Shown here piece by piece: positions 7,337 through 30,309 of a stretch of DNA of 64,000 nt. How positions within the stretch are numbered: the first letter of the stretch is position 1; each line of letters starts with the position of its first letter. Where the stretch lies: positions 62,001 through 126,000 of the forward strand of contig NZ_JAMPKJ010000007.1 in the NCBI RefSeq assembly GCF_039962115.1, written 5' to 3'. Source of the stretch: Funiculus sociatus GB2-C1 (GTDB lineage Bacteria; Cyanobacteriota; Cyanobacteriia; Cyanobacteriales; FACHB-T130). Under the pieces are notes generated by a model. The model saw only the letters and a list, made by a program, of their open reading frames with translations. It was not told the DNA's origin and searched no databases. A program made the position numbers and the translations under genes.

Positions 7337-8761
7337 ATGAACTTAACGGCTGGCGCAGTCCTGAAGAACGGTAAATATATTCTTGACACCCCCCTGGGCC
7401 AAGGTATCTTTGGGATTACCTACCGGGCGACTCATGTCAAATCAGGGCAAACGGTCGTCATCAAAACCCTCAATGAGAGCCTATGGACTCATCCCAATTT
7501 TGAGCGATTTAGGCAGCAATTTGAGAGTAGCGCCCGTCGCCTTGCTAAAGTCAAGCATCCTCACCTAGTTAGGGTTCTCGACCTTTTTCAAGAATCCCGA
7601 CAGTCTTTTATCGTAATGGAGTACATCGAGGGGCAGACTCTGGCGGAAATCACAGATATTAAGCCACTGCCAGAAGAAAAAGCCATAGACTATATTCGTC
7701 AAATTGGCGATGCCCTGAGTTTAGTCCACAAAGCAGGTTTACTGCACCGGGATATCAAACCGCAAAACATCATCCGTCGTCAGGATACTGATGATGTGGT
7801 GCTGGTAATTGGTATTGCCGAAGAGCTTACACCAGGAATGATCCAAACTCACGCCAGCTTGGTGAGTCCTGGTTATGCCGCAATTGAACAGTATTTTCCC
7901 AAGAAAAAGCGTACTCCAGCAACAGATATTTATGCTTTAGCGGCAACTCTGTATTGCTTGCTGACAGGGGAACCCCCAATTCCGGCATCGTTAAGAGAGA
8001 AAATTCCTCTGCCAGATTTGCGACAGTTGCAACCAAATCTGGGCGAAGAAGCGATCGCTGCCCTTGGGAGTGGCTTGGAAATGAAAGCCGAATCTCGTCC
8101 CCAAACGGTAGAAAATTGGCTTGCGCTGCTGCCTTCTATCAGTATCCCAGAGATTCCCCCAATACCCGTCCGGCCTCAGCCAGCCCCCAGTCCCCAGTCC
8201 CCAGTCCCCAGTTCCCAGCCCCCAGCCCCACAGAAGCAGAAGCAAGAACAAGATATTACCAAAGGGGTGAACTGGAATTTAAGCCCAAAATTGGCAGGGA
8301 AATCCCGCCCCTACAAAACACAAGTCAGCACAGCCCCGAAAAAATCCAAAACTCCAGTAAAGACGAAGCGCCCCATCGCCCCAGTCAAACTGAAAATATC
8401 CTTACCGAATGTTAAACCTCAAGAGGCAATTCATCGCCTATCTACAAAACTCAGTAAGGTAAAGATTACCCCAGCCCTACCAAACTTAAAACCGCTAAAG
8501 CTCACCCCACCCAAGACGTTAATGATGACAGCTGCGATCGCTACCTGTGCTGGTGCTGGGTTTGGCTTGGCAATTCGCTATCACGCCGCCATATCACCCG
8601 GTTCTTCTATCCTACACACCGAGCAATCCTTTCCCGCCCGCAACGACTGGCCGATCTCAGATATCCCTGAGCCTACTCCTCAAAATAGCTTGCTATCACC
8701 GCCATCTGCTATTGTCATCCCAGTGGCACCCGCTCCAGTGACACTGCCACCTGAGCTGTAA
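7337..8761 (+). CDS. Ser/Thr protein kinase-like protein with degenerate DFG motif
   Basis: Hanks-type kinase fold (about 14-265), a long Pro/Lys-rich linker and one membrane span (about 394-416) with an extracytoplasmic tail. The glycine loop (GQGIFG), the Lys in VVIKTL (K43) and HRDIKPQN (about 137-144) are present. However, the Mg-binding DFG Asp is missing: the position reads VIG (157-159) where relatives read DFG before IA. The activation-segment APE also reads AIE in GYAAIEQY. It may therefore be a weakly active kinase or a pseudokinase. The linker includes CCCCAGT-type heptamers (about 8187-8226). It begins a cluster with an ABC1 kinase and a PP2C phosphatase on the same strand. Confidence 0.85.
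   Translation: MNLTAGAVLKNGKYILDTPLGQGIFGITYRATHVKSGQTVVIKTLNESLWTHPNFERFRQQFESSARRLAKVKHPHLVRVLDLFQESRQSFIVMEYIEGQTLAEITDIKPLPEEKAIDYIRQIGDALSLVHKAGLLHRDIKPQNIIRRQDTDDVVLVIGIAEELTPGMIQTHASLVSPGYAAIEQYFPKKKRTPATDIYALAATLYCLLTGEPPIPASLREKIPLPDLRQLQPNLGEEAIAALGSGLEMKAESRPQTVENWLALLPSISIPEIPPIPVRPQPAPSPQSPVPSSQPPAPQKQKQEQDITKGVNWNLSPKLAGKSRPYKTQVSTAPKKSKTPVKTKRPIAPVKLKISLPNVKPQEAIHRLSTKLSKVKITPALPNLKPLKLTPPKTLMMTAAIATCAGAGFGLAIRYHAAISPGSSILHTEQSFPARNDWPISDIPEPTPQNSLLSPPSAIVIPVAPAPVTLPPEL
8187..8226 (+). repeat. CCCCAGT heptamers encoding part of a Pro-rich linker
   Basis: About five tandem, partly degenerate CCCCAGT units in frame within the kinase linker (SPQSPVPSSQPPAP). They are C-rich on the coding strand, like the insertions in the CCA-fusion gene and priA. 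Confidence 0.75.
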
Positions 8762-8829
8762 CCTCAGCTATAGGTAGTATTGAGAGCAATCAAGTTATAA
8801 TTTGTAACGGACGCACATTAAAATTTTCC

Positions 8830-9156
8830 ATGAATAATCCTGTAGTTCATGCCTTTTTTGTTGGCAGAGCAGTGGCGGAAGCAGTTAACGAGCAGGTAGA
8901 GAACGCTCTCACCAATGCTTTTTCGGAAATTGGTAAATTTGATGCCGAACAACGAGAGTCTCTGCGGCAATTTACCATAAAAGTCACCGAACGCTCGGAT
9001 GCTCAAATGGAAACTGTCATGCGGGGGCGAACCACTACAACCATTGTGCCGCAGGGTAGCCAGCCTGTAGATTTGCAAGCGACAATTGATGAACTCAGAG
9101 CAGAAGTTGCTCGTTTCCGTTCCGAGTTACAGCGCTATCGCAGCCGTTCTGTGTGA
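8830..9156 (+). CDS. Conserved cyanobacterial small protein (DUF6825-like)
   Basis: A 108-aa soluble protein starting MNNPVVHAFFVGRA, with an amphipathic helical N-terminal half (KFDAEQRESLRQFT) and a C-terminal coiled-coil-like helix (TIDELRAEVARFRSELQRYR). I recall this layout from a widespread cyanobacterial family of unknown function, possibly DUF6825; the family number is from memory. No catalytic motif is visible. It lies between the degenerate kinase and the ABC1 kinase on the same strand, 68 and 137 bp away. Confidence 0.75.
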   Translation: MNNPVVHAFFVGRAVAEAVNEQVENALTNAFSEIGKFDAEQRESLRQFTIKVTERSDAQMETVMRGRTTTTIVPQGSQPVDLQATIDELRAEVARFRSELQRYRSRSV

Positions 9157-22470: not shown

Positions 22471-22992
22471 ATGATCAATGATTTGAATTTGCGCCCAGCT
22501 ACTCCAGCTGATGTGCCAGTGCTGTTTCGCTTGATTGAGAGGCTGGCAGAGTATGAAAAACTATCTCATGCTGTCACTGGCAATGCTAACGACCTGAAAG
22601 AACACTTATTCGGCTCTAAACCCTATGTGGAGGCGATTATAGCTGAATATAATGGGCAAGCGGTCGGGTTTGCCCTGTTTTTTCATAACTATTCGACGTT
22701 TCTCACCAAGCCGGGAATTTATCTGGAAGACTTGTTTGTTCTCCCCGCATATCGTCGTCAAGGTATTGGTAAACAGATTTTTAGCTATTTGGCAAAGCTT
22801 GCAGTTGACCGTGGCTGCGGCCGGATGGAGTGGAGCGTGCTGGATTGGAATCAACCCGCGATCGCTTTCTATGAGCGCATTGGTGCAGATGTCTTACCCG
22901 ACTGGCGGATTTGCCGAGTGGCTGGCGAATCCCTCACCAACCTAGCATCTGCACCATTAACCTCTTCTGCCAGTGACGTAGGCAGCCGTTAG
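22471..22992 (+). CDS. GNAT N-acetyltransferase, diamine/spermidine acetyltransferase-like
   Basis: A 173-aa GNAT-fold enzyme using acetyl-CoA. Shown by RPATPADVPVLFRLIERLAE, YLEDLFVLPAYRRQGIGKQI (motif A, CoA pyrophosphate loop R/Q-x-x-G-x-G/A) and WNQPAIAFYERIGA (motif B). The LAEYEKL...YLEDLFV layout resembles eukaryotic-type diamine acetyltransferases; substrate unproven. The last 15-20 residues (ASAPLTSSASDVGSR) are unlike the family and are encoded by sequence that also reads, on the other strand, as the end of a pstB relic, so the C-terminus may have been extended by fusion to foreign DNA. Confidence 0.88.
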   Translation: MINDLNLRPATPADVPVLFRLIERLAEYEKLSHAVTGNANDLKEHLFGSKPYVEAIIAEYNGQAVGFALFFHNYSTFLTKPGIYLEDLFVLPAYRRQGIGKQIFSYLAKLAVDRGCGRMEWSVLDWNQPAIAFYERIGADVLPDWRICRVAGESLTNLASAPLTSSASDVGSR

Positions 22993-23168
22993 AGGGTGCT
23001 GTGGGGATGCAAATATCTGGGTAACTGAACCGGATTCGATCAATTGTCCAGCGCCATTTTGAACCCAAAATAGCGCCACACCATCAGCAATGCGCTTTGC
23101 CTGTGCCAGATTATGGGTGACGATTAAATCCTCTACCACTTCACTAGAAAGCGGATCGAGGACACAGC
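22957..23168 (-). pseudogene. Relic of a phosphate ABC transporter ATPase (PstB-like), C-terminal part
   Basis: Reads LDPLSSEVVEDLIVTHNLAQ, then AKRIADGVALFWVQNGAGQL and PQHPLTAAYVTGRRG: the D-loop, H-loop (VTHN) and C-terminal end of a PstB-like ABC ATPase. Walker A, signature and Walker B are absent, and about 15 residues usually found between the D-loop helix and VTHN are missing, so there is both 5' loss and an internal deletion. It overlaps the 3' end of the GNAT gene by 36 bp on the opposite strand. Confidence 0.7.
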
Positions 23169-23530: not shown

Positions 23531-26161
23531 TTAAACTCTAATCGGAATCTTTATCGCCAATTCAGCCCCTTTTCCGGGTACAGAAATACACTCTAAATTT
23601 CCCTTATGTTTTTCAACAATAATTTGGTAGCTAATCGCTAAGCCAAGCCCAGTCCCTTTACCAACAGTTTTCGTGGTGAAGAAAGGATCGAATAGTCTTT
23701 GCTTAACCTCTGGTGTAATACCTAAACCATTGTCTATAATCCGGATTTCTACTTGATTGCGGTCTACAACCTTGGTGCAAATCCAGATAGTGCCGGGATC
23801 GTCTTTAATTTCTTCTAGCGATCGCTTACGGTTGTACTCATCTAGAGAATCAATCGCATTCGTGAGTAAATTCATAAATACTTGATTGATTTGTCCGGCA
23901 TAGCACTCGACCAAGGGCAATTCGCCATATTCTTTAATCACCTGAATTTCAGGATGCCCCGGTTTATTTTTGAGTTGATTTTGCAAAATCACTAGCGTAC
24001 TATCAATGCCCTCGTGAATATCAACTTCTTTCATGTCCGCTTCATCCAAACGAGAAAAGTTTCTTAGAGAAAGAACAATTTGACGTATACGCTCAGCTCC
24101 CACTCTCATAGAGGACAAGATTTTCTGAAAGTCCTCGGTCAGGTAGTTAAGCTCAATGTCTTCAATATGCGTTTGAATTTCCGGGGCAGGATCGGGGTAG
24201 TGCTGCTGATACAAATCCAGCAATTGCAATAAATCTTGCAGGTATTCATTCGCAGGGGTAACATTGCCATAGATGAAGTTAACCGGATTATTAATTTCAT
24301 GGGCTACGCCAGCCACTAATTGACCCAAACTAGACATTTTTTCCGTTTGAATCAATTGGGTTTGAGTTTGTTTTAACTCGTATAATGTTTGTTCCAACTC
24401 TTTAGCTTTGTCTCGGTATTTAGCTTCAGCTTTTTGAATTTTTTCAAATAAACGAGCATTTTCCCAAGCCGTGGCGATTTGTCCAGCCAAAGTGTTGAAT
24501 GTATCGAGATCGGTTTGGCTGAAGCGATCGCTTTGGTAATCTTGGATATTAAGCACCCCCAAAAGCGTGCCACGACTGATCAGCGGGATTGCTACCTCGG
24601 AACCCCCTTGACCAGGTTGTAATTCTTTTTCTGTCAATAGATTACTGATATCATCCACCCAGACAGGTTGGTGTGTTCTGGCGGCATGAGCGACAATAGA
24701 GCGATCGCACTCCAGCGAGATATAGGCACTTTCGTCTTGCCTGAGTATATCGTAACTGCCAGAATCAGCCCACCTAACCAGTTTGCTGTTTGTTTGATCT
24801 AATAGATATATCTGAACATAGTGTAAACCAAAGCGATTTTGCATCAAGGCGATCGCTTCCCGCAATAGCAGTTCCGGGTCTAGGATCGCTTTCGACAGTT
24901 CGCTGACGGCAACCGTAACGTGTTGACTGACTTCCAGTTCGCGGGTACGCTCTTCTAAGCCTTGAAGCAATTTACCGACTTGTTCTGCCATCCCATTGAA
25001 ACTCAAAGCTAGCACCCCAATTTCATCCTTTGATTTGATAGAAGTACGAGCATTGAGGTTGCCAGCAGTGAATTGAGTCACTGTCCCAGCCAGATTAATC
25101 AACGGCTGAGTCAGGAGCTCTCCGATCGTAATCGCCGCGATAATGACTAAACCTGCAATGATCGCAGCCAGCAACAGCGTGTCGCGGATTTGGGCTTCGA
25201 TAGGCGCGAGAAATACCGATTGAGGCTGGACGAAAACCACAAACCACGGCTGCGTCTTTAGCTTGGTAACTGCTGCTGCGTTCGGCTCGTTGTTTGTAGA
25301 GGATAAGGCAGTTGTAAAGTAAGGGGATGTTGCAGCGTTATCTAGACCTTGCTCAAAAGCAGGCAAATTTGTCGAGAAGTCTGCCGTTTTACCCTTCGGC
25401 AACCGTCCTTCTGCTTGTAGAGCTTTCACTTTAGCTGGTGGGAGTGGTGTTACCGATTTAAAATTTAACTCAGGTGCTTTGCTGTGAGCTAAACGGATAT
25501 GGTTTTCGTCCAGCAAAATCGCAAAAGATGCGCTTCCTCTCACTAGGTCGGTATTTTGGCTAACCAATCGCTGAATCACGGCAGCCTTATAACAGATATG
25601 CAAGACACCAATAATATTTCCAGAGGCATTCCGTACCGGACTACTGAAGTACAAACTGACCTCATTAGTCGTTGGGGAAAACTCGATGGGCGAGACATAG
25701 GGTAAGCCAGTTTTAAACGGTCGTTCAAAGTAATCTCGGTCAGATTTATCTATACCAATATCTGGTGTATACGTATCAATGACAGCTCGCCCCTGGCGAT
25801 CGAGCAGCGCGTATGATGAGATATTCAACGTATCTTTACGGCTGAGCGATCGCAAAGCGCCCTCGACTTCTGAAGCGATACTTTGTCTCTGGTTAGCAGG
25901 TAAACTTAAATACTTCGCTAAGACTGGCAACTGAGCTTCAACCCGGACAGCATCTAGATTAGAGGAGATAAAGGCATCTATACTCAGGGCCGTTTGGGAG
26001 GCAGATGTTAGGAGGGTTTGATTGGCATTTTTTGTCAGCTCCTTTTGCATGGTTCGCTGATTCAAGAATGCCAGTACTAGCAAGGGGAGGAGCGCCACAC
26101 CCAAGAAAGAAAAGATCAGCTTAGTGCGTAGGGTATAAAGTTGGAACTGTTTCACAGTCAA
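23531..26161 (-). CDS. Membrane histidine kinase: dCACHE-HAMP-GAF-HisKA-HATPase
   Basis: An 876-aa sensor kinase. Membrane span 1 at about 13-33, periplasmic double-CACHE sensor about 35-315 (DRQGRAVIDTYT, DYFERPF), span 2 about 328-350, HAMP about 348-400, GAF about 425-570, coiled coil 575-608, phospho-acceptor His621 in AGVAHEINNP, and an ATPase domain with NLLTNAIDSLDEYN, IIDNGLGI and GKGTGLGLAISYQI. Its start (TTG, MTVKQF) overlaps the stop of the upstream binding-protein gene by 4 nt (TTGA), so the two are translationally coupled. An alternative GTG start lies two codons in. It is last in a five-gene run with four substrate-binding lipoproteins, suggesting those proteins present ligands to this kinase. 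No response regulator follows. Confidence 0.93.
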   Translation of the reverse strand: MTVKQFQLYTLRTKLIFSFLGVALLPLLVLAFLNQRTMQKELTKNANQTLLTSASQTALSIDAFISSNLDAVRVEAQLPVLAKYLSLPANQRQSIASEVEGALRSLSRKDTLNISSYALLDRQGRAVIDTYTPDIGIDKSDRDYFERPFKTGLPYVSPIEFSPTTNEVSLYFSSPVRNASGNIIGVLHICYKAAVIQRLVSQNTDLVRGSASFAILLDENHIRLAHSKAPELNFKSVTPLPPAKVKALQAEGRLPKGKTADFSTNLPAFEQGLDNAATSPYFTTALSSTNNEPNAAAVTKLKTQPWFVVFVQPQSVFLAPIEAQIRDTLLLAAIIAGLVIIAAITIGELLTQPLINLAGTVTQFTAGNLNARTSIKSKDEIGVLALSFNGMAEQVGKLLQGLEERTRELEVSQHVTVAVSELSKAILDPELLLREAIALMQNRFGLHYVQIYLLDQTNSKLVRWADSGSYDILRQDESAYISLECDRSIVAHAARTHQPVWVDDISNLLTEKELQPGQGGSEVAIPLISRGTLLGVLNIQDYQSDRFSQTDLDTFNTLAGQIATAWENARLFEKIQKAEAKYRDKAKELEQTLYELKQTQTQLIQTEKMSSLGQLVAGVAHEINNPVNFIYGNVTPANEYLQDLLQLLDLYQQHYPDPAPEIQTHIEDIELNYLTEDFQKILSSMRVGAERIRQIVLSLRNFSRLDEADMKEVDIHEGIDSTLVILQNQLKNKPGHPEIQVIKEYGELPLVECYAGQINQVFMNLLTNAIDSLDEYNRKRSLEEIKDDPGTIWICTKVVDRNQVEIRIIDNGLGITPEVKQRLFDPFFTTKTVGKGTGLGLAISYQIIVEKHKGNLECISVPGKGAELAIKIPIRV

Positions 26162-27159
26162 TTTACCTTTTGTAATTGCTGTACAAAGGACGGCTCGATC
26201 AGTTTTTGAATATCTAGTGCAGCGTTTAGCCCTCCAGTGCGAGTATAGAAGTCGGCGTAGAATTTGGCTGTATGATACAGCGACTCGGATGTAGAACCGG
26301 GAGTAAAGGCTTTTAAATTGTCTTGCAAAGTGTATAACTGGACTCCATCGGTGGAAACTTCTTCAGGTTTGAGGTTTAGTTTTTTGGCAATCAGTGCATT
26401 ACTTTCTTCTGGATGAGCCTTCCAGTAATCTTGGGCTTGGAACCAAGCTCGGATAAATGCTTGTATTTGAAGAGGGCGATCGCGTACTACCGAAGTGCGA
26501 AATGCGATGACATTCGGAAGCAATCCAGGTGTTTGCTTAGTGCTAAGTAGCACCTTTGCCCCGGCTTTAACCGCTTGCCCTGTGTAGGGTTGCCACGTAT
26601 TTCCAGCTTGAATGTCACCACTTTGTAAACCCGCTGGAACCGATTCTGGTTCTACATTGACGAGAGTCACGTCATTAGTGGTGAGGTGATTTTTGTGCAG
26701 CAAGGTGCTGATAAATAATTCTCCAAAATCACCTAATTTCGTGCCGATTCGCTTGCCTTTTAAGTCCTTCATACTTTTAATATCGCGCTGCACCACCAAA
26801 ACGTCCGCACCCGCTGATTGATCCGTCACCTGAGTAATCTGCACGTCAGGGTTTTTCCCAATAATGTTGATGATGCTACCCAAAGAGGTAGCGATCCCGT
26901 CGGTTCTGTCAGCACTGAAGGCAGAGATTGATTCTATGTAGTTTTCTATATAGACGGGTTCAACTTTCACCCCTTGAGCCGTGAAGAAACCTTTTTCGTA
27001 AGCGATCGCTATCGGAAAATTTCCAGGCCACAGATTGTAGATAACTCTCAGGGTCGGAAGCTCGCTTCGGGAACTAACAGTTGTCGTACTATTACAGGAG
27101 GTGATGAGTACAATGCTTAACAAGAAAAGAGATAGAAAGCGAAAAAATCGAGATTTCAT
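26158..27159 (-). CDS. Substrate-binding lipoprotein SBP-1 (NMT1/SsuA/NrtA-like)
   Basis: A 333-aa periplasmic binding protein of the NMT1/THI5-SsuA-TauA class. The ATG at 27159 gives a lipoprotein signal peptide with lipobox LITSC; nine further upstream codons are unlikely to be used. The core reads YNLWPGNFPIAIAYEKGFF, SAGADVLVVQRDIKS, LKGKRIGTKLGDFGELF and RAWFQAQDYW. Relatives bind nitrate, taurine, alkanesulfonates or thiamine precursors; the ligand here is not predictable. No permease or ATPase accompanies it. It overlaps the histidine kinase start by 4 nt and is fourth in order of transcription in the array. Confidence 0.9.
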   Translation of the reverse strand: MKSRFFRFLSLFLLSIVLITSCNSTTTVSSRSELPTLRVIYNLWPGNFPIAIAYEKGFFTAQGVKVEPVYIENYIESISAFSADRTDGIATSLGSIINIIGKNPDVQITQVTDQSAGADVLVVQRDIKSMKDLKGKRIGTKLGDFGELFISTLLHKNHLTTNDVTLVNVEPESVPAGLQSGDIQAGNTWQPYTGQAVKAGAKVLLSTKQTPGLLPNVIAFRTSVVRDRPLQIQAFIRAWFQAQDYWKAHPEESNALIAKKLNLKPEEVSTDGVQLYTLQDNLKAFTPGSTSESLYHTAKFYADFYTRTGGLNAALDIQKLIEPSFVQQLQKVN

Positions 27160-27206
27160 ACAGACCGATTGATTTTGTAACGGCATGGGAGTATATTAAT
27201 TAAGTG

Positions 27207-28208
27207 TCAGTTTCCCGATTGCAACTGCTGTACAAAAGAGGGATTAATCAGTTTTTGAATATCTGGTGTAGTGCTTAGCCCCCCGGTGCGAATCGAGAAG
27301 TCGGCATACAATTTGGTGGTATGGTACAACGACTCTTCTGTGGAGCCGGGAGTAAACGCCTTTAAGTTTTCTTTCAAGGTGGAAAGCTGAATGTTATCGG
27401 TTGAAACGGTCTCAGGTTTAATCTTCAGCCGCTTAGCAATCAGTGCTTTGCTTGCTTGGGGATTTGCTTTCCAGTAATCTTGGGCTTGGAACCAAGCTCG
27501 GACAAATGCTCTTATCTGTCCAGGGCGATCGCGTATTATATTGCTGCGAAACACAATGACATTCGGAATCAACCTAGGCGTTTGCTTACTGGTAAATAGT
27601 ACCTGCGCTCCGGCTTTCACTGCCTCTAATGTGTAGGGATACCAAGTTTGTCCGGCTTGAATATCACCGCTTTTTATGTGTGCTGGAATCGCTTCTCCTT
27701 CTATATCGACTAGCGTCACGTCATCGGTAGTAAGACCATTGCTCTCCAGCATCTTGACAACAAACAATTCTCCGTAGTCGCCTAACTTCACGCCGATTCG
27801 CTTGCCCTTCAAGTCAGCCACACTTTTAATATTGCGTTGCACCACTACGGTGTCAGCACCAGCCGATTGATCCGTCACCAGCACAATCTGCACCTCTGAG
27901 TTTTTCTCAATAATGCTCATCAGGCTACCCAAAGCCAGGGTAATCCCATCGTATTTGCCAGCACTGAAATCAGAGATAGACTGTAGATAGTTTTCTGAAT
28001 ACACAGGTTCAACTTTCACCCCACCAGCCGCCAGGAACCCTTTTTCTTGAGCGATCGCTATCGGAAAATACCCAGGCCACAGAGTGTAAACAACTTTCAA
28101 AGGCGGACTTTCTGGGCGGGAAGTCACCGTTGTTGTACGATTGCAAGCTGTAATGAGTAAAATGCTCAACAGAAAAAAAGATACAAAACGAAGAAATCGA
28201 GATTTCAT
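27207..28208 (-). CDS. Substrate-binding lipoprotein SBP-2
   Basis: A 333-aa paralogue with lipobox LITAC and the same two-lobe pattern (YTLWPGYFPIAIAQEKGFL; SAGADTVVVQRNIKS; GVKLGDYGELFVVKMLESNG). Its last 180 residues are almost identical to SBP-3, at DNA level too, while the N-terminal lobes differ, indicating a recent duplication or gene conversion. It lies 47 bp before SBP-1 and 51 bp after SBP-3 on the same strand. Divergent N-lobes with a shared C-lobe could mean altered ligand choice on a common scaffold (inference). Confidence 0.9.
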   Translation of the reverse strand: MKSRFLRFVSFFLLSILLITACNRTTTVTSRPESPPLKVVYTLWPGYFPIAIAQEKGFLAAGGVKVEPVYSENYLQSISDFSAGKYDGITLALGSLMSIIEKNSEVQIVLVTDQSAGADTVVVQRNIKSVADLKGKRIGVKLGDYGELFVVKMLESNGLTTDDVTLVDIEGEAIPAHIKSGDIQAGQTWYPYTLEAVKAGAQVLFTSKQTPRLIPNVIVFRSNIIRDRPGQIRAFVRAWFQAQDYWKANPQASKALIAKRLKIKPETVSTDNIQLSTLKENLKAFTPGSTEESLYHTTKLYADFSIRTGGLSTTPDIQKLINPSFVQQLQSGN

Positions 28209-28259
28209 TCAGACCTGCATTGATGCGTGTGAGTAAATGTAATCATATTGGCTTTTGTG

Positions 28260-29261
28260 TCAACTTCCCGATTGCAACTGCTGTATAAATGAAGGAACAA
28301 TCAGTTTTTGAATATCTGGTGCAGTGCTTAGCCCCCCGGTGCGAATCGAGAAGTCGGCATACAATTTGGTGGTATGGTACAACGACTCTTCTGTGGAGCC
28401 GGGAGTAAACGCCTTTAAGTTTTCTTTCAAGGTGGACAGCTGAATGTTATCGGTTGAAACGGTCTCAGGTTTAATCTTCAGCCGCTTAGCAATCAGTGCT
28501 TTGCTTGCTTGGGGATTTGCTTTCCAGTAATCTTGGGCTTGGAACCAAGCTCGGACAAATGCTCTTATCTGTCCAGGGCGATCGCGTATTATATTGCTAC
28601 GAAACACAATGACATTCGGAATCAACCTAGGCGTTTGCTTACTGGTAAATAGTACCTGCGCTCCGGCTTTCACTGCCTCTAATGTGTAGGGATACCAAGT
28701 TTGTCCGGCTTGAATATCACCGCTTTTTATGTGTGCTGGAATCGCTTCTCCTTCTATATCGACTAGCGTTACGTCATCGGTAGTAAGACCATTGCTCTCC
28801 AGCATCTTGACAACAAACAATTCTCCGTAGTCGCCTAACTTCACGCCGATTCGCTTGCCCTTCAAGTCAGCCATACTTTTAATATCCCGATGCACCACTA
28901 CGGTGTCAGCACCAGCCGATTGATCGGTTTCCAAGACAATGTGGATATCTGGGTTTTTCCCAATGATGCTCATCACACCACCCAATGTTACGATGATGCC
29001 ATCATATTTACCTGCACTAAAATCAGAAACAACCCCTAAATAGTTTTCTGAATACACAGGTTCAACTTCCACCCCCTGTTCTGCGAAAAATCCTTGTTCT
29101 GAAGCTATTTCCATCGGGAAATATCCAGGCCACAGATTGTAGGCAATTCGCAGGGGTGGAAGCTCAGGCTTAGAGGTTATAGAGGTTCTACCATTGCAGG
29201 CTGTAACCAGCACAATGCTGAGCAATAAAAGAGACACAAAGCGGAAAAATTGAAATTTCAT
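28260..29261 (-). CDS. Substrate-binding lipoprotein SBP-3
   Basis: A 333-aa paralogue from the ATG at 29261 (MKFQFFRFVSLLLLS, lipobox LVTAC). The frame extends 26 codons further upstream, but that part overlaps the end of SBP-4 and precedes the signal peptide, so it is not used. The N-terminal lobe (YNLWPGYFPMEIASEQGFF; IVTLGGVMSIIG) differs from SBP-2, whereas the stretch from ADLKGKRIGVKLGDYG to FSIRTGGLST is identical in amino acids. Same family and same ligand uncertainty as its neighbours. Confidence 0.9.
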   Translation of the reverse strand: MKFQFFRFVSLLLLSIVLVTACNGRTSITSKPELPPLRIAYNLWPGYFPMEIASEQGFFAEQGVEVEPVYSENYLGVVSDFSAGKYDGIIVTLGGVMSIIGKNPDIHIVLETDQSAGADTVVVHRDIKSMADLKGKRIGVKLGDYGELFVVKMLESNGLTTDDVTLVDIEGEAIPAHIKSGDIQAGQTWYPYTLEAVKAGAQVLFTSKQTPRLIPNVIVFRSNIIRDRPGQIRAFVRAWFQAQDYWKANPQASKALIAKRLKIKPETVSTDNIQLSTLKENLKAFTPGSTEESLYHTTKLYADFSIRTGGLSTAPDIQKLIVPSFIQQLQSGS

Positions 29262-29310
29262 ATTAAATGACTTTTGATGTTTAAATGCATGAAATAATGC
29301 TATTTTTTTG

Positions 29311-30309
29311 TCATTTTCCTGCCTGCAACGGCTGCACAAAAGAAGGATTAATCAGTTTTTGAATATCTGGGGCAGTGGTTAGCCCTCCGGTGCGAATATA
29401 GAAGTCAGCGTACAATTTTGCGGTATGGTACAACGACTTGGTTGTAGAACCGGGAGTAAACGCTTTTAAGTTGTCTTTTAAGGTGTACAACTTGACACCC
29501 TCAGTAGAAACTTCTTCGGGTTTGATGGAGAGCGTTTTCGCAATCAGTGCTTTACTTTCTTCGGGATTTGCCTGCCAATAGTCTTGAGCTTGAAACCAGG
29601 CGCGAATAAATGCTTGAACGTCTTTTGGGCGATCGCGTACTACCGAGGTGCGAAACACAATTACACTTGAAATTAAACCGGGTGTATCCTTACTGCTGAA
29701 TAATACTCGCCCTCCAGATTGGGTAACTTCAGATAGGTACGGTTCCCAAGTATGTCCTGCTTGAATATCACCGCTCTTAAAACGTGCTGGAACCGATTCT
29801 CCTTCTACGTTGACTAGGGTTACATCATCGGTAGTCAAACCATGTTGCTGGAGCATTTCGCTCACAAATAATTCTCCTTCGCCTAACCTGACTCCGAGCC
29901 GCTTGCCTTTCAAGTCAGCGACACTTTTAACATCCGGGCGAGCTACAATTGAGTCCGAACCAGCCGATTCATCAGTTGCGATCGCAATCTGCACATCTGG
30001 GTTTTTCCCAATAATGCTCATCAGGCTACCTACTGTGAGGGCGACTCCATCATATTTTCCAGCAGCGAACTCAGACACCGAATCTAAAAAGTTTTGGATA
30101 TAGACGGGTTTGACTTTCACCCCTTGAGCCGTGAAGAATTCTTTTTCAGATGCGATCGCTATCGGAAACAGTCCAGGCCACAGATTGTAGCCGACTTCCA
30201 AGGGCGGCTGTTCTGGGCGGGAAGTTACGATTGTCGTACCATTGCAAGCTGTGACGAGTACCAGGCTTAGCAAGAAAAGGGACGCAAAGCGGAGAAGTCG
30301 AGATTTCAT
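29311..30309 (-). CDS. Substrate-binding lipoprotein SBP-4 (first gene of the array)
   Basis: A 332-aa paralogue with signal peptide and lipobox LVTAC (MKSRLLRFASLFLLSLVL). The core motifs are YNLWPGLFPIAIASEKEFF, SAGSDSIVARPDVKS and RAWFQAQDYWQANPEESK. It is the most diverged of the four: the loop after GVRLGEGELF is one residue shorter and the hinge reads SGGRVLFSSKDTPGL. It stands first in the direction of transcription, so the operon promoter should lie in the spacer beyond 30309. Confidence 0.9.
   Translation of the reverse strand: MKSRLLRFASLFLLSLVLVTACNGTTIVTSRPEQPPLEVGYNLWPGLFPIAIASEKEFFTAQGVKVKPVYIQNFLDSVSEFAAGKYDGVALTVGSLMSIIGKNPDVQIAIATDESAGSDSIVARPDVKSVADLKGKRLGVRLGEGELFVSEMLQQHGLTTDDVTLVNVEGESVPARFKSGDIQAGHTWEPYLSEVTQSGGRVLFSSKDTPGLISSVIVFRTSVVRDRPKDVQAFIRAWFQAQDYWQANPEESKALIAKTLSIKPEEVSTEGVKLYTLKDNLKAFTPGSTTKSLYHTAKLYADFYIRTGGLTTAPDIQKLINPSFVQPLQAGK

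Follow-up and report, generated by a model that had tools for sequence, protein, structure and literature searches.

Why would a bacterium line up four genes for periplasmic solute-binding lipoproteins directly ahead of a histidine kinase gene, with no permease gene in the run? We address this question for a locus of the cyanobacterium Funiculus sociatus GB2-C1 (assembly GCF_039962115.1, contig NZ_JAMPKJ010000007.1, positions 62,001 to 126,000), treated here as part of a window, i.e., the whole analyzed stretch of 64,000 nucleotides (nt), whose numbering is used throughout. Sequence comparisons indicate that the four solute-binding proteins (SBPs) most likely detect chemicals for signaling rather than uptake, since relatives of the locus keep an SBP gene beside the receptor gene while the internal output of the receptor changes. 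We consider it likely that the lipoproteins are periplasmic co-receptors, with the ligand-loaded form acting on the adjoining receptor. A first-pass annotation of this DNA had proposed a multi-ligand sensing module and a candidate for an undescribed system; the former is borne out in part, in that comparison supports coupling of the lipoproteins to a receptor rather than to an importer (54 of 59 loci, together with co-occurrence). As to the latter, the activation of receptors by SBPs is a principle already described (PMC11113362).

The features of the locus are listed below; the nearest named relative, Trichocoleus sp. FACHB-40 (hereafter FACHB-40), is assigned to the same species.

29311..30309, minus strand: SBP copy 1 (type A), an NMT1/SsuA-like lipoprotein of 332 amino acids (aa)
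28260..29261, minus strand: SBP copy 2 (type B), a lipoprotein; the ATG at 29261 is the probable start, and a longer open reading frame (ORF) with a TTG start extends to 29339
27207..28208, minus strand: SBP copy 3, a lipoprotein and a chimera of a distinct N-terminal part and a tract in common with copy 2
27248..27848 (approximate), minus strand: homogenized tract in copy 3, with its counterpart in copy 2 at about 28301-28901
26158..27159, minus strand: SBP copy 4 (type C), a lipoprotein; the ATG at 27159 is the probable start, and a longer ORF extends to 27186
23531..26161, minus strand: dCache-HAMP-GAF histidine kinase, starting at TTG 26161 or GTG 26155
24932..26161, minus strand: the half of the kinase gene for the transmembrane, dCache, and HAMP regions, whose synonymous divergence (dS) points to exchange between genera
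23531..24840, minus strand: GAF-HisKA-HATPase half of the kinase gene, whose ancestry changes near nt 1320
22958..23164, minus strand: decayed ATP-binding cassette (ABC) ATPase remnant of about 69 codons, PstB-like by way of its longer counterpart in FACHB-40

All four SBPs match Pfam NMT1 (E values of 4e-22 to 7e-21) and NMT1_2 far above the cut-off, and score 141-152 bits against the NCBIfam model SsuA_fam, just under its curated cut-off of 163.5; NMT1, NMT1_2 and Phosphonate-bd are the only families matched, with no TctC-family match at E <= 0.001. A lipobox cysteine is present in each of the four, and copies 2 to 4 are 67-69% identical to the first. Thus, as the first-pass annotation had stated, four paralogous NMT1/SsuA-type lipoproteins are encoded in tandem on one strand at a spacing of about 50 base pairs (gaps of 49, 51, and 47 nt if every copy begins at its conserved Met-Lys); for copies 2 and 4, the mechanically assigned longer starts are probably unused. 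The kinase that follows also agrees with the earlier description, with matches to dCache_1, HAMP, GAF, HisKA (partial, 612-634), and HATPase_c (1.4e-22), and with HEINNP in its sequence. A 4-nt overlap of the kinase gene with the last SBP gene, likewise claimed earlier, exists only if translation starts at the TTG; the GTG two codons further on leaves a 2-nt gap, which is also the SBP-kinase spacing in two relatives (L043 and L045). Promoter-like sites at the locus occur at chance level only, and between 22900 and 31000 the minus strand has no terminator-like site. Export of the SBPs and the topology of the receptor are predicted from the lipobox and the dCache-HAMP arrangement.

Binding protein and sensor across genomes

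A search of 388 genomes of the order with the sensor half (E <= 1e-45, with at most five candidates scored per genome) gave 59 sensor places in 52 genomes, the window included, and the neighborhoods of all 59 were read. Two loci (L037 and L038) were omitted as duplicates of L040 and L045, and a 26% sensor of the window's own genome (L103) lies outside the 59. In a second draw of 386 genomes across the phylum the sensor is found in 16, all of the same order, and a plasmid search with the sensor gave no match at E <= 1e-20. We observe that an SBP gene, whole or in pieces, lies next upstream on the same strand at 54 of the 59 loci, an association that spans several families of the order. It is an NMT1 gene in 43 cases; the gap to the sensor is 9 nt or less in 32 of these 43 pairs, and the adjacent gene encodes more than 300 aa in 41 of them, being short in L048 and L062. 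At the other 11 loci, which have more distant sensors (36-41%), the partner is an SBP_bac_1 protein unrelated to NMT1 and with a twin-arginine-like start, as assigned by Pfam for one representative and by identity of at least 76% for the rest. This distant branch (L093-L102), with its homologous sensor and twin-arginine (Tat)-type SBP_bac_1 protein, includes one locus, L094, where the pair occurs twice in one stretch.

Receptors that have any SBP have one to four, and since most relatives carry one per receptor, the four copies of the window do not define the system. The five loci without an upstream SBP comprise three cyclase receptors, one kinase (genome G004), and one sensor at a contig end (L091). 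In G004, two receptor-clade SBPs and the sensor sit on different contigs and both are kept. At L065, L066, and L067, in three related genomes, a dCache-cyclase receptor is kept without an SBP of this clade, in whose place lies a receiver-kinase gene. With respect to co-occurrence, a receptor-clade SBP (E <= 1e-80) is present in 15 of 120 genomes, and the sensor (E <= 1e-90) occurs in the identical 15; at these thresholds both are absent from the remaining 105, of which five have only the distant sensor type with SBP_bac_1 (Fisher value of 2e-19, which ignores the relatedness of the genomes). In the window's own genome, one of 14 dCache_1 hits lies less than 10 kb from a PF09084 hit, a count that misses NMT1_2-only proteins, and this one is the window locus.

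On the cytoplasmic side, dCache_1 and HAMP are joined to GAF-HisKA-HATPase, HisKA-HATPase-receiver, GGDEF, PAS plus Guanylate_cyc, or SpoIIE domains, as identified by Pfam in representatives; the outputs of the others were assigned by BLAST to these representatives, and two cut receptors (L062 and L100) carry no output label. The sensor tree holds at least seven output changes vs four changes of upstream partner, three of the latter being loci without an SBP; because support is weak for several branches and three rows are long, the seven is a count on one tree. Of the two, the output is the more labile, and SBP adjacency survives output changes. In one hybrid-kinase form, a receiver-GGDEF protein follows the receptor (by Pfam; others show the motif). 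At SpoIIE-type loci (L058, at 8335-8850, L070, and L072; 3 of 5), a small protein with a nearly identical start is encoded after the receptor, and that of L058 matches helix-turn-helix families.

These arrangements suggest a mechanism in which each SBP, tethered by a lipid in the periplasm as its lipobox predicts, would close on a small ligand and then dock on the periplasmic dCache domain of the neighboring receptor. From dCache, the signal would travel by way of HAMP to the output in the cytoplasm, which here is GAF and histidine kinase; in relatives the same input would feed a hybrid kinase, a diguanylate cyclase, a class III nucleotide cyclase, or a SpoIIE phosphatase. Tandem copies might allow one receptor to take several ligand-loaded partners, as an OR gate, or to meet one ligand in several versions. 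Docking, its dependence on ligand, the use of more than one ligand, and the direction of the response are the parts of this mechanism that we infer.

A number of observations weigh against SBPs acting as co-receptors. Three related genomes (G310, G345, and G227) keep the sensor-cyclase with no receptor-clade SBP at E <= 1e-20 and only importer-like matches of about 30%, so the sensor can persist without its SBP. The neighboring SBP gene is fragmented or truncated at 5 of 11 SBP_bac_1 loci, with a full-length gene at the remaining 6, and at 2 of 43 NMT1 loci, one of the damaged genes lying beside unread bases; in L048 and L062, an intact copy lies further upstream of the truncated one. The thresholds for co-occurrence were placed at visible gaps after the lists had been seen, the genomes compared are not phylogenetically independent, and because the sensor was found within one order only, a frozen ancestral operon accounts for part of the conservation. 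Two single-chain structure models reached a mean predicted local distance difference test (pLDDT) score of 42.8 and 53.2 and gave no usable model. Lastly, the Pseudomonas aeruginosa receptors AgtS and AruS showed no binding to the SBPs encoded near them (PMC11113362), so adjacency is no proof of contact between SBP and receptor.

The persistence of the sensor without an SBP in three genomes would also suit a role of the SBPs as ligand buffers or decoys. In that case dCache itself would bind the same small ligand, and the tethered SBPs would adjust how much of it is present locally, with no docking involved. The occurrence of two unrelated SBP families at the same position fits this explanation as well as it fits docking. 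The dCache_1 amino-acid motif, which we take to consist of an Arg and a Trp-Tyr pair, was mapped by eye onto sensor positions 142, 144, and 145. In 48 sensors that do not belong to the SBP_bac_1 group, the residue at position 142 is R 10 times and Q 21 times; position 144 is always Y, and position 145 is F in 46. On this placement the Arg appears not to be kept, which would fit a dCache domain that reads an SBP instead of a free amino acid, is no proof of it, and would count against a pocket of the amino-acid type only. In favor of buffering, dCache domains are able to bind ligands on their own (PMC8846402). On balance, we regard buffering as very unlikely and retain the co-receptor explanation.

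The importer question

SBPs of this kind could also serve a distant ABC importer, for instance the NitT/TauT-type one at C59 in the same genome, with the kinase of the operon sensing a ligand of its own and regulating uptake. In its favor, the solved relatives of the SsuA/NMT1 families are mostly importer SBPs, and permease and ATPase genes of that class exist in the genome. With the C59 permease as query (E <= 0.001), eight stretches of the genome resemble a NitT/TauT-type permease, and each of the eight is adjoined by an SBP of its own: SBPs at C59 and, twice, at C70, NMT1_2 proteins at C8, C9, and C12, an SBP_bac_11 protein at C23, and an OpuAC protein at C30. A permease elsewhere that uses the window's SBPs, which the first-pass annotation had named as a finding that would speak against sensing, was therefore not found in this search. 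Nor was a NitT-type permease seen within five genes of any sensor, as judged by BLAST with a single permease at loci some of which are truncated by contig ends.

Receptor-linked and importer-linked SBPs also differ in their gene neighborhoods and in their descent. In 20 control regions, picked among the better of the SBP hits at about 30% and thus not random, the SBPs are about 31% identical and a permease gene follows directly in 20 of 20; an ATPase gene comes straight after it in 18 regions and is separated from it by one small ORF in the other 2. A tree built with a quick method separates 24 importer-linked from 64 array- or receptor-linked SBPs by one branch with a support of 75; the two lone SBPs of G004 fall on the receptor-linked side, on long branches. 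Of the rows compared, 64 of 64 in the receptor group and 20 of 21 in the importer group carry a lipobox pattern (both rows of L104 and one of L123 were kept in the tree and left out of the conservation comparison), and 38 of 96 importer-invariant positions drop below 60% agreement in the receptor-group SBPs. The receptor-clade SBPs thus follow the sensor across genomes and the importer-linked ones form a separate group, and GGDEF and cyclase outputs would not be an expected need of an uptake operon. We therefore consider service to a distant importer very unlikely in comparison with signaling through the adjoining receptor. The nearest solved chains to the SBPs are SsuA, TauA, and THI5-like proteins, at a similarity too low for a ligand to be named, and the sensor profile matched nothing among solved structures at E <= 0.01.

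The first-pass annotation had seen neither permease nor ATPase in the run, which is correct for intact genes and overlooks the decayed ABC ATPase piece downstream at 23164-22958. This scrap was considered as a partner of the SBPs and rejected, as it is the end of a pst-type operon. Its longer counterpart in FACHB-40 has PstB as best NCBIfam match (243 bits, partial, under the cut-off); at the same place, genome G011 has PstS, PstC, PstA, and PstB-like genes, with PstC and PstA above the cut-off and the others just below, and genome G039 has a whole pst-type operon, by homology. At two loci (L041:9857-12763 and L042:4924-7827), a PHY and GAF histidine kinase is encoded between the receptor and a pst-type operon, as identified by Pfam in L041, to which L042 is 95% identical; the window has neither this kinase nor an intact operon at that place. 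In one family (L046, L048, and L050), a sugar-type ABC importer operon lies divergent from the SBP array, upstream of it, with an SBP_bac_1 protein and a MalF/UgpA-like permease identified in L048 and an ATPase signature in L050. This operon could be a target of the receptor.

Array turnover and recombination

The composition of the array differs between close relatives, the order of types being A-B-B'-C in the window, A-B-C-D in FACHB-40, A-B-D in G011, and A-C in G039. In the window, copies 2 and 3 are 93-100% identical over about nt 360-960 (in 60-nt steps) and 60-82% before; correspondingly, dS between them is 0.855 in codons 1-125, as far as between other paralogues, and 0.024 in codons 131-315. 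In G098, the array is apparently split over two contigs (at the start of L043 and the end of L044), with the break inside an SBP gene of which residues 3-221 and 233-331 are matched, probably an assembly break in repeats.

Such turnover invites the explanation that recombination within a tandem repeat has left the extra copies as by-products, with one SBP that matters and others without a special role. The single SBP of most relatives, the broken copies in G087 (the fourth) and G204 (the second), and the partial homogenization of window copies 2 and 3 all agree with it. All window copies are intact, however, and 13 whole-gene SBP comparisons gave ratios of nonsynonymous to synonymous divergence (dN/dS) of 0.15-0.33, which places the compared copies under purifying selection; moreover, types A-D are held as separate lineages in at least two genera. 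The copy types also differ at importer-invariant positions beyond expectation (8/12 vs 88/287, P = 0.02), a weak hint that the copies of an array may bind different ligands. We thus judge it unlikely that the extra copies are mere by-products, and prefer the reading as tandem co-receptors.

With respect to descent, the kinase gene is a mosaic, as its two halves follow different histories on either side of a change of ancestry between HAMP and GAF, near nt 1320. For the sensor half, dS is 0.438 vs FACHB-40, 0.270 vs G011, and 0.20 vs G039; for the GAF-kinase half (codons from 24811), it is 0.096, 1.044, and 1.18, respectively. The five flanking genes are at dS 0.02-0.08 from those of FACHB-40, and comparison of flanking genes with the other genus gave 1.46 (G011) and 1.36 (G039) for a GNAT gene and, in G039, 0.81 for a channel gene and 0.23 for a TrkA-like gene; given the last value, exchange is not limited to the array. 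SBP copies are at dS 0.11-0.31 between genera. Copy 4 is 93% identical in DNA to a copy in another genus (G039) and 84% to the type C copy of FACHB-40, and copy 1, which is 93% identical to the first SBP of the FACHB-40 locus, follows the species (95% in DNA). Copy 4 and the sensor half thus have a near relative in another genus in common, and the kinase half follows the species. These values indicate exchange between genera for the SBPs and the sensor half and not for the kinase half. As the sensor half of FACHB-40 is also near that of G011 (dS of 0.41), we give the exchange without donor or recipient.

We tentatively propose, as a possibility that we hold with less than even confidence, that the locus works as a recognition cartridge open to exchange: the SBP array and the receptor's periplasmic half would recombine between genera and be reassembled onto the output of each lineage, so that specificity would be swapped in one piece, with cassettes gained and lost and with gene conversion as sources of its diversity. 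Such diversification might resemble that of recognition loci elsewhere, a parallel we draw with the same reserve.

Comparison with known systems

For SBP-activated receptors, the introduction of PMC11113362 names proteobacteria, firmicutes, and archaea, and not cyanobacteria, and we found no paper on SBP-coupled receptors in cyanobacteria in the open-access literature, by word searches that miss synonyms. The same literature yielded no receptor family in which SBP and sensor are kept together while output and SBP family change, and no report of SBP arrays exchanged together with the sensor half. The signals of most bacterial receptors are unknown (PMC11113362); in this family an SBP stays next to a single type of sensor as outputs vary and, in one instance, the SBP family too, and the small soluble SBPs offer a direct route to such signals. 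If our reading is true, binding proteins would have been recruited away from transport, and sensing specificity would be traded between genera separately from the kinase.

Several known systems resemble the locus in part. In Trg-like chemoreceptors, two SBPs report to one receptor, as several would here; unlike the window, these are chemotaxis receptors served by importer SBPs, and the genes are not in an array. NspS-MbaA, of Vibrio and Sinorhizobium, differs from the window in SBP family and receptor domain, and the Salmonella protein ArtI belongs to an ABC importer and not to an NMT1 lipoprotein array. NspS is nevertheless alike in being a periplasmic binding protein that reports polyamines to a membrane enzyme of cyclic di-GMP (c-di-GMP) metabolism, with one SBP and no tandem array in the abstracts (PMC8967002, PMC9993111, PMC5646818). 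The response of the dCache_1 diguanylate cyclase STM1987 genetically needs ArtI, a putative periplasmic binding protein (PMC8846402). Tandem paralogous SBPs, some of them near histidine kinase genes, are found as orphan tripartite tricarboxylate transporter (TTT; TctC-family) arrays in Rhodoplanes, which differ in SBP family, in their genome-wide expansion (434 genes), and, in the passages concerned, in having no constant receptor partner (PMC5994714). The genes of characterized SBP-kinase couples are adjacent or close in 10 of 11 cases (PMC11113362). In BctC-BctE, the SBP, once loaded with ligand, binds a histidine kinase at its periplasmic domain, as we propose for the window; BctC is part of the BctCBA transporter (PMC9602780), whereas the SBPs of the window stand beside their kinase without a transporter.

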